This document shows, piece after piece, positions 4,649 to 33,441 of a DNA stretch of 33,922 bases. The position numbers and the translations under genes are program-made. Source of the DNA: Candidatus Woesearchaeota archaeon (GTDB lineage: Archaea; Nanobdellota; Nanobdellia; Woesearchaeales; GW2011-AR9); the NCBI GenBank assembly GCA_016179955.1, contig JACPCD010000009.1, forward strand, positions 1-33,922. The letters run 5' to 3'. The notes under the pieces are model-generated. The model searched no databases. It had not been told where the DNA came from and worked only from the letters and a program-made list of their open reading frames with translations. Numbering within the stretch: the first letter of the stretch is position 1; each line of letters opens with the position of its first letter.

Positions 4649-7600
4649 ATGACTGAAACTAGCCCGCAAACTGCTCCCGGAGAAGGCATCATCCCCCGGG
4701 TTATCGAGCAGGAAATGAAAGAGGCGTACGTCAATTACGCCATGTCGGTTATCGTAGGGAGGGCGCTCCCGGACGTCCGCGATGGCCTGAAGCCGGTTCA
4801 TCGGAGAATTCTGTATGCCATGTACGACATCGGCATGCTGCACAACAAGCCGTTTAAGAAATGCGCCCGAATTGTGGGAGAGTGTTTTGTTAAAGATACT
4901 CCTGTTCTCACCGAACGGGGCTTAGTTCCAATTCAGGAGGTTCAGATTGGAGAAAAGGTCTTTACCCAAGGTGCCCTTAAACCAGTTTCACAGCTCTATA
5001 TTATGCCGTCTCGTCCTTTACTCAAAATCTCTCTAGTGGGCGGCCTTTCCAATATCGCGACCCCTTCCCAGAAATTTAAGGTTCTTACTCCTAACTGGAC
5101 ATTCATCTGGAAAGAAGCTAAGCATCTCCAACCCGGCGATTACTTGGTCACCAAAGCAGCCTATCCTCACCATGTACCGCCACCCTCGCTCGGGGAAAAG
5201 AAATTGACCCCTGCTCTAGGCTATGTGCTGGGTCAATTGCTCTCTGATGGCTGGATCGGCATGGATAAAGACCGTGGCTATCACCGCCTCTTTTTTTATT
5301 CTACTTCCAGCCCTATTATTAACCGCCTGATCGCTATTTTTGAAGAAGAATTCTCTTATACCCCCACACTGGAGCACAAAGACTACGAATTGCCTTCTTC
5401 TTCCGGTCACGTGCTGCTGCAAAAAGCCTACCAAATCCGCATTAACCGGCAGGATATCAATCAATTTTTTCTTACCCACTTTAATCTTGCTCATGTTCTC
5501 GCCGAAACAAAAACTATTCCTCTCCCTATCCTCCAAAGCCCCCCGGAGACTGTTTTTTCCTTTTTGAGCGGTTTAATTGATGGCGATGGCAGTATCCATT
5601 GTGAACGCAACGTTATCCATTATGGCACCGTTTCCGCGAAACTTGCTCACCAACTTCTTCTCCTCACCCATCACTTAGGATATCCAGGAAAACTGTATGC
5701 GCAAGAAAAAGGAAAAAAAATCATCCTCGGACGCCAATGTTCTACCCAAAAGTTTTACAACCTGGAATGGCGTGGTGCAATTGCTCAAAAATTTTCTACT
5801 CAACTTAATGTAGCTGAAGAGGAAAAAGCGTTGCGGCTGGAACGATTGCGTACCAGCCAAATCAAGAAAAATTCTGAAGAGATAATCCCATTTGCTTCAA
5901 CCAAAATATTTGCTGAACTTAGCAACCACCATCTTGGCGGCGGATGGTATGCCACTCCTGCGGGAAAAAAATTTCGTGCGGGCATAAAGTATCCCGCGGG
6001 AACAAAAATCCGGTACTCTTCCACCATCCAAGAAACCGCCCTACATCTTTCTCAAATTATTGAATGGGGGATACAGGAAAAATTACAGCAGATTGGTTCC
6101 CAATTATCCTCTTTTTTGGAGTTAGTTATCCGCGATAAACTACTCTTTCTCCCGGTGAAAGAAATAGCGTCTGCTGGTGAAGACGCAACCTACGATCTTC
6201 AGGTAGAGGGCGACCATGAGTTTGTGGCCAATGGCATGGTGGTTCACAATTGCCTTGGGAAATATCATCCCCATGGTGATACTGCAGTGTATGACTCCTT
6301 GGTACGCATGGCCCAGGACTTTAGTTTGCGCTACCCCCTTATTAAAGGGCAAGGTAATTTCGGCAGCATTGATGGCGACAACGCCGCTGCACAACGTTAT
6401 ACTGAAGCAAAGCTGAACCAGATCGCCGAAGAACTCCTCAAAGACATTGAAAAAAATACCGTGGAGTTTAAAGATAATTTTGATAGTACATTACAAGAGC
6501 CTTCCGTCCTGCCCAGCAAGCTGCCCAACCTGTTAATAAACGGCTCTTCCGGTATTGCCGTGGGCATGGCGACCAATGTTCCACCTCATAATGTGACGGA
6601 AGTGTGCAATGCCATCATTGCCGCTATTGATAATCCTGCCATTACGGTGGAAGAGCTGATGCATATCATTCCTGGCCCGGATTTTCCTACTGGCGCGGAG
6701 GTTATCTGTGGGAATGGGCTGCGTTATGCGTATGCCAAAGGGAAAGGAAAAGTAACCATTAAAGCTATTGCTGAGATTCAGGGCGATCAAATTATCGTCA
6801 CGGAAATTCCTTATCAAGTTAATAAGGCAGAACTTATTGAGCAGATTGCTGAATTGGTCAAGGATAAGCGTATTGTGGGCATACGCAATATCAACGACGA
6901 ATCCGATCGGGAAGGTATCCGCATCGCCATTCATCTTAAAGATGGAGCCGATGGAAATGTCATCTTAAACCAGTTGTATGAATATAGCAACCTGAAGACG
7001 TCGTTCAGCCTGCAGATGCTGGCCTTAGTGGATCAACAACCTCGTTTGCTGGGCTTATCGGAGATGATCCAGCACCACATTAAACATCGCCAGGAGGTTA
7101 TCGTCCGCCGGACGACGTATGATTTAGCGGAAGCGGAAAAGAAGATCCATATTTTAGAAGGCTTGCTGGTGGCGCTGAATAATTTAGATCGGGTTATTCC
7201 TGGCATCCGCAACAGCCGGACTATCGAAGAGGCCAGCAGATTTTTGATATCTACTTTTTCCCTGACGGAAATCCAGGCGAAGGCCATTTTAGAAATGCGG
7301 CTGCAAAAACTTGCTTCTTTGGAGCAGGAAAAAATTAGGGTAGAGCATACGGACGTGCTGCAGCAGATTGCCCTCTTCCGCGAAATTTTAGGATCGGGGC
7401 AGAAAGTTCTTTCCCTGATTAAAGAAGAATTGCATGAAATTAAAACTGATTATGGCGATGCCCGCCGCTCACGGATAGTCTTAGGAGATGATGAAGAAGG
7501 GTTTGATATGGAAGAGCTGATTGCAGATGAAACCTGCATTGTTACTATGACTCATGCCGGGTATGTGAAACGCCTGCCCGCCGATACTTACAAGACGCAG

Positions 7601-8479
7601 CGCCGCGGCGGCAAAGGCGTCAAGGCTGCCGGAACCAAAGAAGAGGATTTTGTGGAAAACGTGTATGTTGCATCCACCCACGATTACCTGCTGTGCTTTA
7701 CCGATCAGGGCCAAGTCTATTGGCTGAAAGTGTATAATGTTCCGGAGGGAAGCCGGCAGGCTAAAGGCAAACATATCGCGAATGTACTGGAGCTGCGAGA
7801 AAAGGAAACTGTGAACGCCATTGTTCCCGTCAGCAATTTCCAGCAAGGATATTTGTTCATGGCCACCAAACAAGGCACGGTCAAGAAAACTGAATTAACA
7901 GAATTTGCCAATCCCCGTCGAGGAGGAATTCGAGCCATAACCTTTGATGAGAATGATACCTTGGTGGGCGTTCGCTATACTACGGGAGATCAGGAGATAA
8001 TCATTGCCACCCGCCAAGGGCAGGCTAACCGGTTTAATGAGCAGGATATTCGTCCCATTGGCCGGCAAGGGCGTGGAGTCCGAGGGATACGATTAGAGGA
8101 AGGCGATGAAGTCATTGGTATGCTAGCGGCTGAGGAAAAAATGAATATATTGACCATTACGGACAAAGGGTATGGCAAACGTACCCCCGTTTCCGAGTAT
8201 CGCCTGTGTAATCGTGGCGGGAAAGGGGTTACGAACATTAAAATCACTGATAAGAATGGTGCGGTGAAAGCGGTCATGCTCGTGGACGGGAAAGAGGAAA
8301 TCATGTTAGTCTCTCGCAACGGCATTGCCATCCGGGTGAAATGTACGGATATCTCTATCGTCGGGCGGGCCACGCAAGGTGTTCGTATCATGAAGCTGGA
8401 AGACGACGACCAGTTAGCAGCGGCTGCCAAGATTGTGGTTGAAGATGAGGAAGATACCAATTCTGGATCGGCAGAATGA
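4649..8479 (+). CDS. gyrA: DNA gyrase subunit A precursor with intein (1276 aa; extein about 820 aa)
   Basis: [42 protein letters not shown], catalytic AQRYTE, and a C-terminal GyrA box QRRGGKG with pinwheel repeats. Confidence 0.96.
4883..6250 (+). other. LAGLIDADG-type intein in GyrA (456 aa)
   Basis: Interrupts RIVGE / [10 protein letters not shown]. Begins with Cys (CFVKDTPVL), ends VVHN before Cys+1, with [14 protein letters not shown] and [12 protein letters not shown] motifs. Confidence 0.95.
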
Positions 8480-15342: not shown

Positions 15343-18036
15343 TCACAATTCTTTTAGTTTCTCCAGCCCCTTCTTGAAAAACTCTTTCTTCTCCGGTATG
15401 GCAAACGGCGAACCGCCCCCATGCCACGTAAATCGTGGGCGCATCTGCACCGGGAAAATACGTTCATTGGCATCATCAAAAATAACCGCTGCACCTTGCA
15501 CCCGGGGCAGGAAATCTATCTCTTGCTCTAATCCGTGGCGCATGTAACTTTGGGTGAGCATCCCTAAAGCGTCTACATCCATTCTCGCCGTAAGCCGATG
15601 GGCGATGACTGTGTCAGCCTGCGTCAGTACATCCGTATGAATCTTTCCCGGCTGTTGTGACGCAAGTATAAGTGAAATTCCCGGCTGACGGCCTTCTCGA
15701 AGTATAGTAATTAACGCATTCGTGGCCGCAGTTTTCCCTTCTTTTGGCAATAATTCATGACAATTATGGACAATGAAGCCGTCAGCAACAAAATTATGTA
15801 CTTTATCAACGGAAATGTCAAAAACTGGTTCTGCCTTTTTCTTGATTTTTGAGAGTATATTTTCATAGAGAATGTTGTTCTTAACTCTGGATTCATTCCA
15901 AACATCAAAATCTGAAAATGACCAGCACAGTTTAGTTCCTCGCCCATGATAAATCCAATCTCTTACTTGCCAAGCTTGGATACCTAATTTTCTGGCAATC
16001 TTAATTTTACCCCAACCTGTCTCTTTTCTAATTTTAAGTGCTTTCAGGCGTAATTGTTCTCGTTCTTTTAAGGTATGTTGCCTCGCTTTAAGATACAAAA
16101 GCCATTTATTGCCTTTTATCTCTTTCTCCGTACAATACCTGTAACCAACCGTTTCAAGAAATTTGATGGTGTTTTCTACATTTTTAGCAAGAGTAATCTG
16201 AAACTTAATCGATGCTGTTCCATCTTTCCTAAGGTTGCCTCCATTTTTTCTCTCACTCGCGTTGCTTACTTTCACCCCAATATCTTCTAATAAAAATTTA
16301 ATTTGCCTTGCATACTGCTCACCATTCGACCTGAGTGTGCTTGCTTTGTTAAATGTTAACCTAATGGCGTTAAAATCCCCCCCCCATTTTTTTGATTGAG
16401 ATGGAGCCACACCATCTGCTCCAAACAAAGCTGCCAAAAATTCTGCCTTTTCTAGTTTAGATGCGCCCATAAGCCATTTTGGGATTAGAACTTTAGTATT
16501 GGTTTTGCTTCCTATAGGAATACTCAATTCAGAAAAAAAGTTAAAAACTTTTGTGCCGGCTCCTACAGAATGCGAGGTGCCTTCTACAATTGCTTCTTTC
16601 CCACTTACTGCTTTTATTGTTGATACTGTTTTTCTAGAATAAATCTTCGAGGAAGAGAGTCCAATTGTATGAAGATCACCCCGTATTATTTCTAAATCCT
16701 CTGGGTATCTTTTTCCACTAAATCCTGCCTGCTTTTGATTGGCACTTAACCATCCATCCCCATAAAGATGCCCAACTAATCTCGCAACGATATGTTTTCT
16801 CTCTTGAGAATAATTTAATTGCAAAGGTGTTCCTATTTCCTCAGCAATTTGAGCTTCTTTGAATCCATCGGCGGTTAGAATTTTATGCTCTGGCGTACAT
16901 TTTATTTTTCTACCAGTTTCTGTTGTAAGTTCAATTATATTTTTTACACCTTTTTTATAGACTTTAGTAATCGGAAAAAAACCAACTTTTTTTTGAGAAA
17001 GGTCATAGCCTAACACTTTTAATTGTGTAGTCGGCATCCATTGATTGATGATTTGACCTATTTTTATTTTACCTCTACTAGTGGTTATGGATGAAGAATA
17101 TGGAAGACATTCGTCAATCCCCAGCCACACTAACGGCTCGTCCAGTTTCTCTTCCACTTCTTTGGAAAAGTAATGCATGGCTGCATCCACGGTTTTGAAC
17201 TCTTCTGTCTTTCTGGTCAACATACGCTGGTTGAACAAGGTGCGGGCAATTAAGCCTACCACTAATGCTTTGATGTCCCAGCCCGAGCCCATGGTAGCAT
17301 ACGGACTGACGTCTAACACCGTTACTTGTCCTCGGGCGACGATATCTTTCAACGGCGTTCCTTCTGCCGAGAAGATTTCCCATCCTTTTGCTTTCTTGAA
17401 TTCATTGAGGACGATATGATTTACGATGGGGTCACTTTCTGTATCTTGATGCACGGCATCGAGCAGTGTATCTAACGAATAACTTGTTTTCTTTCGTCCC
17501 AGCTCCTGGACTATCCTCGTAATTAACACGCCTTCGGCGGAGTTCTGGTCGATGGAAAAGACCGTGCACCAGTCTTCTGGATTGACGTCCAGAGGCCGGA
17601 TGGAAAACGGGAAGTCGGTAGGAATTCCCTGTTCTTTGTATTGGTAATAAAAACCAGTAGGGGTATAGATCTTCACATCCAGTGGTTTTGCCTCTATGCC
17701 CCATTGTTTCAGTAATTCCGCATCCTGAAAGTTGGGGTATTTCATGGTCCAGTAAATACCCATCGTATCTAATAGGATGATGGAAAGGTTTTGTTTGATC
17801 TCTTGAGGTAAATCGGCGATGCCTTCGGCAATGGCGCCCAGCGAGTAGGATTTTCCCGATCCTCTCTTGCCTACAATAAACACTACATGCGACCCCGCCA
17901 CATCCAAATAGACGGGATTCGAAAGCGACGTGGTCTGCCCCATCTTGATGTACTGTTTGCCCATCAGAATGGTGCCTTCTTTTCCGTACTTTTCGAGGTC
18001 TTTCTTGCTTCGGCCGATGACGACATCAAACACCAT
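15343..18036 (-). CDS. herA: HerA-like ATPase precursor with intein (897 aa; extein about 448 aa)
   Basis: Walker A VGKRGSGKSYSLG, Walker B LVWLGIDE split by the intein, then CHELLPKEGKTAATNALITILREGRQPGISLILASQQP. Confidence 0.92.
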   Translation of the reverse strand: MVFDVVIGRSKKDLEKYGKEGTILMGKQYIKMGQTTSLSNPVYLDVAGSHVVFIVGKRGSGKSYSLGAIAEGIADLPQEIKQNLSIILLDTMGIYWTMKYPNFQDAELLKQWGIEAKPLDVKIYTPTGFYYQYKEQGIPTDFPFSIRPLDVNPEDWCTVFSIDQNSAEGVLITRIVQELGRKKTSYSLDTLLDAVHQDTESDPIVNHIVLNEFKKAKGWEIFSAEGTPLKDIVARGQVTVLDVSPYATMGSGWDIKALVVGLIARTLFNQRMLTRKTEEFKTVDAAMHYFSKEVEEKLDEPLVWLGIDECLPYSSSITTSRGKIKIGQIINQWMPTTQLKVLGYDLSQKKVGFFPITKVYKKGVKNIIELTTETGRKIKCTPEHKILTADGFKEAQIAEEIGTPLQLNYSQERKHIVARLVGHLYGDGWLSANQKQAGFSGKRYPEDLEIIRGDLHTIGLSSSKIYSRKTVSTIKAVSGKEAIVEGTSHSVGAGTKVFNFFSELSIPIGSKTNTKVLIPKWLMGASKLEKAEFLAALFGADGVAPSQSKKWGGDFNAIRLTFNKASTLRSNGEQYARQIKFLLEDIGVKVSNASERKNGGNLRKDGTASIKFQITLAKNVENTIKFLETVGYRYCTEKEIKGNKWLLYLKARQHTLKEREQLRLKALKIRKETGWGKIKIARKLGIQAWQVRDWIYHGRGTKLCWSFSDFDVWNESRVKNNILYENILSKIKKKAEPVFDISVDKVHNFVADGFIVHNCHELLPKEGKTAATNALITILREGRQPGISLILASQQPGKIHTDVLTQADTVIAHRLTARMDVDALGMLTQSYMRHGLEQEIDFLPRVQGAAVIFDDANERIFPVQMRPRFTWHGGGSPFAIPEKKEFFKKGLEKLKEL
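15763..17109 (-). other. LAGLIDADG-type intein in HerA (449 aa)
   Basis: Starts CLPYSSSITTSRG, block B CTPEHKIL, LVGHLYGDGWLS and LAALFGADGVAPS motifs, ends FIVHN before CHELLP. Confidence 0.95.
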
Positions 18037-31663: not shown

Positions 31664-31673
31664 TTTATAAATA
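31664..31673 (+). promoter_or_regulatory. TATA box for tRNA-Arg
   Basis: TTTATAAATA ending 24 nt before the mature tRNA 5' end. Confidence 0.7.
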
Positions 31674-31696: not shown

Positions 31697-31867
31697 GGGC
31701 CTGTAGCCTAGCCTGGATAGGGCGACAGCCTTCTATGCGTAAGCGTAAGGAAGCTGTAGGTCGGGGGTTCAAATGCCAGTTACACTAGGCGAGTCGTACT
31801 CAGGTGGGGCATAAAGCCCCACGATAACGCAAAATAGTGTAACGACTTGAAAGTCCCCTCAGGCCCG
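31697..31867 (+). tRNA. tRNA-Arg(TCT) with two introns (31736-31751 and about 31774-31853)
   Basis: Acceptor GGGCCTG/CAGGCCC, D stem GCCT/GGGC, anticodon stem ACAGC/GCTGT, loop CTTCTA+A, T stem GGGGG/CCCCT, loop TTCAAA+T. Mature length 75 nt. Confidence 0.88.
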
Positions 31868-33270: not shown

Positions 33271-33280
33271 TTATATAAAT
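33271..33280 (+). promoter_or_regulatory. TATA box for tRNA-Cys
   Basis: TTATATAAAT ending 24 nt before the mature tRNA 5' end. Confidence 0.7.
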
Positions 33281-33303: not shown

Positions 33304-33441
33304 GCGCCCGTAGCCAAGCGGCTAAGGCAATCGCCTGCAGTCCACGGAAGACAGCGATGATTCGAGGGTTCGAGAATAAGTGGCCTTGCCCCTTATCAAT
33401 CCCGGGCCAATGGGAAGAAGACGAAAATCCCTCCGGGCGCT
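33304..33441 (+). tRNA. tRNA-Cys(GCA) with two introns (33341-33352 and about 33375-33427)
   Basis: Acceptor GCGCCCG/CGGGCGC, discriminator T as expected for Cys, anticodon stem ATCGC/GCGAT, loop CTGCAG+A, T stem GAGGG/CCCTC, loop TTCGAG+T. Mature length 73 nt. Confidence 0.88.

Follow-up and report, generated by a model that had tools for sequence, protein, structure and literature searches.

A very probably functional tRNA-Arg(UCU) gene of a woesearchaeote with a T-loop intron from a family dispersed among tRNA isotypes

The non-canonical bulge-helix-bulge (BHB) introns described in tRNA genes of the Thermoproteales, Nanoarchaeum equitans and ARMAN-1/2 share with those analysed here the 59/60 site, the presence of several introns in one gene and a relaxed BHB motif (PMC4090602, PMC6379350, PMC4033280). 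Multiple or non-canonical introns were already listed for N. equitans and ARMAN-1/2, and 59/60 is a known insertion site (PMC4090602, PMC4033280), so that the T-arm location in a DPANN genome is not the unusual part, as which a sequence-only reading of this DNA had singled it out. As far as it is summarised in the papers that cite it, a 2010 study of transposed archaeal tRNA introns found similar introns across isotypes, as is the case here; insertion is believed to occur at the DNA level, by a mechanism described as unknown (PMC4033280, PMC4090602). From that system, as outlined there, the present one differs in the archaeal lineage concerned and in the occurrence of the same sequences in antisense orientation beside duplicated tRNA 3' ends. 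The tRNA-disruption model for Caldiarchaeum (PMC3293823) likewise connects intron gain with the integration of an element at a tRNA, where a piece of tRNA is duplicated, but concerns one 1.9-kb insertion; here, the short copies number in the tens and are spread over many genomes, one LAGLIDADG-bearing insert comes in addition, and no integrase was seen. Introns in the T-arm, several introns per gene and the transposition of introns are thus already known elsewhere. No description of woesearchaeotal tRNA introns was found in the literature searched and, as far as that literature shows, the host lineage, the scale and the clues to movement are new.

The gene under study lies on the forward strand of a 33,922-nt stretch of DNA (the window) from contig JACPCD010000009.1 of a Woesearchaeota assembly (G000; 954 kb, 42 contigs, 81% complete), whose Top6A protein is 84-85% identical to those of Woesearchaeota/Nanoarchaeota metagenome genomes. 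It spans positions 31697-31867 and comprises three exons of 39, 22 and 14 nt and two introns, with the exons delimited by ARAGORN on the spliced form and by splice-aware alignment. Exon 1 (31697-31735; tRNA positions 1-37) is followed by a 16-nt intron at 37/38 (31736-31751; register ambiguous by 1 nt), exon 2 (31752-31773; positions 38-59) by an 80-nt intron at 59/60 in the T-loop (31774-31853), and exon 3 (31854-31867) supplies the 14 nt of positions 60-73. A TATA-box-like sequence, TTTATAAATA, is located 24-33 nt upstream (31664-31673). ARAGORN called the spliced 75-mer as tRNA-Arg(tct), a complete tRNA, in agreement with the two introns proposed in the sequence-only reading; when the T-loop intron alone was removed, it detected the gene including its 37/38 intron. 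In the ARAGORN drawing all stems are intact, also as proposed, and the G-U pair at 49-65, which had been given as the only one, is joined by a second at 13-22 in the D-stem.

In its unspliced form the gene was missed by ARAGORN, which found no tRNA in the whole window. Rfam at its default threshold gave no match in the window either, and at a loose threshold RF00005 aligned with the 5' part at 15.7 bits (cut-off 29). An Rfam match of the intron to CAESAR, weak at 14.6 bits against a cut-off of 45, was rejected as a chance hit. A cloverleaf parser scored the tRNA at 25.0, compared with 23.5 for the best match in ten dinucleotide-shuffled versions of the complete window, searched on both strands, a margin that is modest when taken alone. 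AGA codons occur 12 times across six ORFs of the window, and no other tRNA-Arg(TCT) gene was found in the 81%-complete source assembly; an intact second gene could sit in the missing part.

A strict BHB motif has a 4-bp helix between two 3-nt bulges. When the precursor is folded to minimum energy, the cloverleaf is retained, and the T-loop TTCAA (31768-31772) forms a 5-bp helix with TTGAA in the 3' splice region (31847-31854), leaving a 3-nt 3' bulge, AGT, before CCCCT. On the 5' side, a 6x3 internal loop (ATGCCA/GAC) precedes a 9-bp inner helix (GTTACACTA/TAGTGTAAC). Since this loop takes the place of a 3-nt bulge, the predicted site is a relaxed BHB: the helix and 3' bulge put forward in the sequence-only reading are borne out, but not the strict motif. 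For tRNA-Ala(TGC) of the same genome, a strict motif is possible as judged by eye (TTCA/TGAA, AAA and AGT bulges, AAGC/GCTT). The exon-intron helix was further assessed in 25 junction sequences; these were selected by means of the T-stem helix, which is hence no evidence, whereas the exon-intron pair at T-loop base 57 played no part in the selection. Counted across T-loop introns, A57 faced U in 12 of 13 cases and G57 faced C in 11 and U in 3 of 14 (Fisher p=3.4e-5, a value that is too small because related sequences are not independent). The pair was altered on both sides in 10 of the 25 sequences, and the signal disappeared when the structures were slid by 1-3 columns as a control. Covariation thus supports pairing between the T-loop and the intron.

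For comparison with relatives, the mature tRNA-Arg was aligned in a splice-aware manner to 80 Woesearchaeota loci around top6A, with BLAST as an additional tool. Of the 80 loci, 44 (the tree set) have the tRNA-Arg(TCT) close to top6A, in most cases no more than about 3 kb away. Six of these orthologues are intronless (L075, L078, L080, L095, L097 and L123); others carry introns near 29/30, 37/38 or about 43/44, in the D-loop or in the T-loop, six of them with three introns by splice-aware alignment, and these positions have a register ambiguity of one or two bases. The presence of the same mature tRNA, devoid of introns, near top6A is the decisive comparative evidence for the reality of the gene, which is real and, on these sequence grounds, very probably functional. 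It might instead be a pseudogene broken by a mobile element, with AGA read by another tRNA. The element family does also occur at sites other than T-loop introns (13 copies, see below) and the assembly is incomplete, but the spliced form has all its stems, the T-loop/intron helix is conserved and shows covariation, no other tRNA-Arg(TCT) was found, and T-loop introns occur at the same locus in 12 other species. We regard a pseudogene as extremely improbable.

The T-loop intron of tRNA-Arg is not an isolated case, as such introns are common in the source genome and its Woesearchaeota family. A second hidden gene in the window, tRNA-Cys(GCA) with U73 (33304-33441, forward strand), was also missed by ARAGORN in its unspliced state. 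Removal of a 12-nt intron at 37/38 (33341-33352) and a 53-nt intron at 59/60 in the T-loop (33375-33427; family F1) yields a sequence that ARAGORN calls tRNA-Cys(gca), and the same TATA-box-like motif as for tRNA-Arg precedes the gene at the same spacing (33271-33280). In several relatives, tRNA-Cys also follows tRNA-Arg. RF00005 gave 17 matches in the source genome, 12 of them above the cut-off. With the cloverleaf parser, T-loop introns within complete cloverleaves were identified in at least 14 of its tRNAs, a lower bound obtained from targeted stretches: Arg(TCT), Cys(GCA), Ala(TGC), Thr(GGT), Ala(GGC), Arg(GCG), Arg(TCG), Ala(CGC), Gly(GCC), a tRNA with anticodon CAT, Ile(GAT), Val(GAC), Ile(TAT) and Glu(TTC). 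This number within one genome distinguishes the present case from the Thermoproteales, N. equitans and ARMAN-1/2. Three further tRNAs were represented by T-arm junctions only, and tRNA-Phe has an insertion at 53/54 as judged by eye. ARAGORN accepted the spliced forms of five such tRNAs; the standard tRNA finder misses these intron-bearing genes. Separately, three tRNA-Leu-like genes of this genome (L008, L009, L011) contain similar 37/38 introns, and the anticodon is apparently TAA in each.

Many of the T-loop introns fall into dispersed sequence families. The F1 repeat (ATAAGTGGC..GCCCCTTATCAACCCC) gave 25 BLAST matches in the source genome, many within T-loop introns. By its sequence, the T-loop intron of tRNA-Arg is one copy of a second dispersed family, F2 (core GCCAGTTACACTAGGCGAGTCGTACTCAGGTGG...CCACGA), with matches in 16 of the 49 genomes and 12 of the 36 genera of the Woesearchaeota family. 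Copies of F2 occupy the T-loop in Ala, Gly, Ile, Glu, Thr, Leu and Val tRNAs, and this recurrence of near-identical intron sequence across isotypes is what defines a transposed-intron family. Of 378 genomes sampled across the class, only members of the Woesearchaeota family contained the exact F2 core (22-mer), and viral contigs contained no exact F1 or F2 core copy, so that no viral carrier was found. Among the 58 unique F1 and F2 copies, 28 are T-loop introns, 17 adjoin direct repeats (11-45 nt long and in most cases tRNA 3' ends) and 13 are located elsewhere. Copies at tRNA 3' ends are antisense to the tRNA and have no TTGAAAG end, whereas T-loop copies possess this end, matched to base 57. 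Downstream of tRNA genes on contigs C18 (L164) and C42 (L170) of the source genome and C33 (L218) of G002, F1 occurs in antisense orientation, either singly or in tandem, and every such copy has a duplicate of the tRNA 3' end after it. In one locus (L248, genome G049), the F2 core is apparently placed in an anticodon-loop insertion of tRNA-Ala(TGC) rather than in the T-loop.

At the tRNA-Arg locus, T-loop introns are present in 13 of 45 species (the source and 12 others), and their distribution on the Top6A tree requires at least seven changes, with many branches weakly supported. The sister species at L048 and L089 have a homologous intron in the same tRNA-Arg gene. The Top6A of L049 groups with theirs, but its T-arm has no intron; the T-loop intron end GGCGTGAAAG and, after it, a second 3' exon are located about 0.9 kb downstream, and a reverse-strand ORF with a LAGLIDADG domain lies between the T-arm and this exon. 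Since the second 3' exon, with its intron end, is located beyond the LAGLIDADG ORF, the intron-bearing 3' end has been displaced by the insert that carries this gene, in an order of events that we infer. The homologous introns of L048 and L089 would suit an immobile intron that is inherited vertically and whose likeness across isotypes reflects functional constraint. This reading is unlikely, given the intronless sister L049, the at least seven changes on the tree, despite its many weak branches, and a core of about 35-50 nt that is mostly 88-100% identical across isotypes, across genera and outside T-loops. The LAGLIDADG gene inserted at tRNA-Arg itself in L049, together with the 17 copies adjoining direct repeats (mostly tRNA 3' ends), could also point to T-loop insertions being attachment-site scars of an integrated element that are never spliced. 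The copies that resemble scars have the opposite orientation and no TTGAAAG end, whereas the T-loop copies carry TTGAAAG, matched to T-loop base 57, and we consider unspliced scars very unlikely.

Broad-specificity EndA is known as an (alpha-beta)2 enzyme with a crenarchaeal loop containing a conserved Lys, or as an epsilon-2 enzyme, and the loop is linked to cleavage of relaxed motifs. Genes for EndA and RtcB are both encoded in the source genome. Its EndA is a 214-aa protein with both the N- and the C-domain typical of an alpha subunit, and its nearest matches are the alpha subunit of N. equitans, the fused protein of entry 5x89 and EndA of M. jannaschii. A PF01974 search at E<=10 revealed one gene per genome above the cut-off in 21 genomes, with neither a second (beta) subunit gene nor a fused epsilon architecture among them; a short divergent beta subunit (2zyz_A) matches the profile of these EndA proteins weakly (E=0.054). 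A second EndA-like match in G011 (L148; E=0.075) was set aside, as nothing was found to support its being a beta subunit. The crenarchaeal loop, an insertion in the Sulfolobus alpha chain (2cv8), is missing from the source EndA, and none of nine woesearchaeotal EndA proteins has it, which sets this system apart from the Thermoproteales, N. equitans and ARMAN-1/2. Either EndA has a broader specificity than expected from its architecture, or a partner escaped detection; a beta subunit could be encoded in the missing part of the 81%-complete assembly. The rtcB gene of the source genome (C23, L160) has a 30-nt insertion with an in-frame stop between MPDGH and WGYG, and that of G011 (L196) has one of the same length at the same place, with in-frame stop(s), whereas rtcB reads MPDGHWGYGFPIGG without interruption in the three relatives checked. 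Judged from its ends and pairing, the insertion resembles a BHB intron, here within a protein-coding gene. Immediately 5' of rtcB in L160 lies an open frame with a LAGLIDADG_3 domain (PF14528, 4.7e-18) and an in-frame stop near its start. Elsewhere, ORF translations of the window include GyrA and a HerA-like ATPase with apparent inteins (4649-8479 and 15343-18036).

We conclude with high confidence that the locus represents a functional single-copy tRNA-Arg(UCU) gene that is spliced by EndA and RtcB and whose T-loop intron stems from a family, F2, that spread through the T-loops of several isotypes. Briefly, the gene would be transcribed into a precursor of about 171 nt, in which pairing of the T-loop TTCAA with TTGAA near the intron end would leave AG/T bulged before the T-stem; EndA would excise the 16-nt canonical intron at 37/38 and the 80-nt intron at 59/60, and RtcB would ligate the exons to give the 75-nt tRNA, while F2 would have spread through T-loops of various isotypes in this Woesearchaeota family. 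Transcription, cleavage, joining and spread by DNA movement are what we infer from features read directly in the DNA, namely the gene and its introns, the intronless orthologues, the covariation, the multi-isotype family and the EndA and RtcB genes. Casposon-like or tyrosine-integrase target duplication and IS200/IS605-type insertion are candidate mechanisms for such movement. More tentatively, the T-loop introns of this Woesearchaeota family may derive from short DNA elements that are mobile and have the near-palindromic T-arm (GGTTCRAAYCC) as their target: in one orientation the insertion could be spliced and survive as an intron, in the other the element would be left next to a duplicate of the tRNA 3' end, with LAGLIDADG genes inserting at the same site driving gain and loss and a one-subunit EndA without known loops processing the result.

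That many genomes contain the same short sequences both within T-loops, as introns, and next to duplicated tRNA 3' ends bears on how introns spread, and because close relatives differ in the intron, its gain and loss are testable. The combination of one alpha-type EndA, which has no specificity loop, with a genome full of T-loop introns offers a direct test of the rule of EndA-intron coevolution. If true, the processing of T-loop introns by a one-subunit EndA would overturn the accepted association of relaxed introns with particular EndA architectures.
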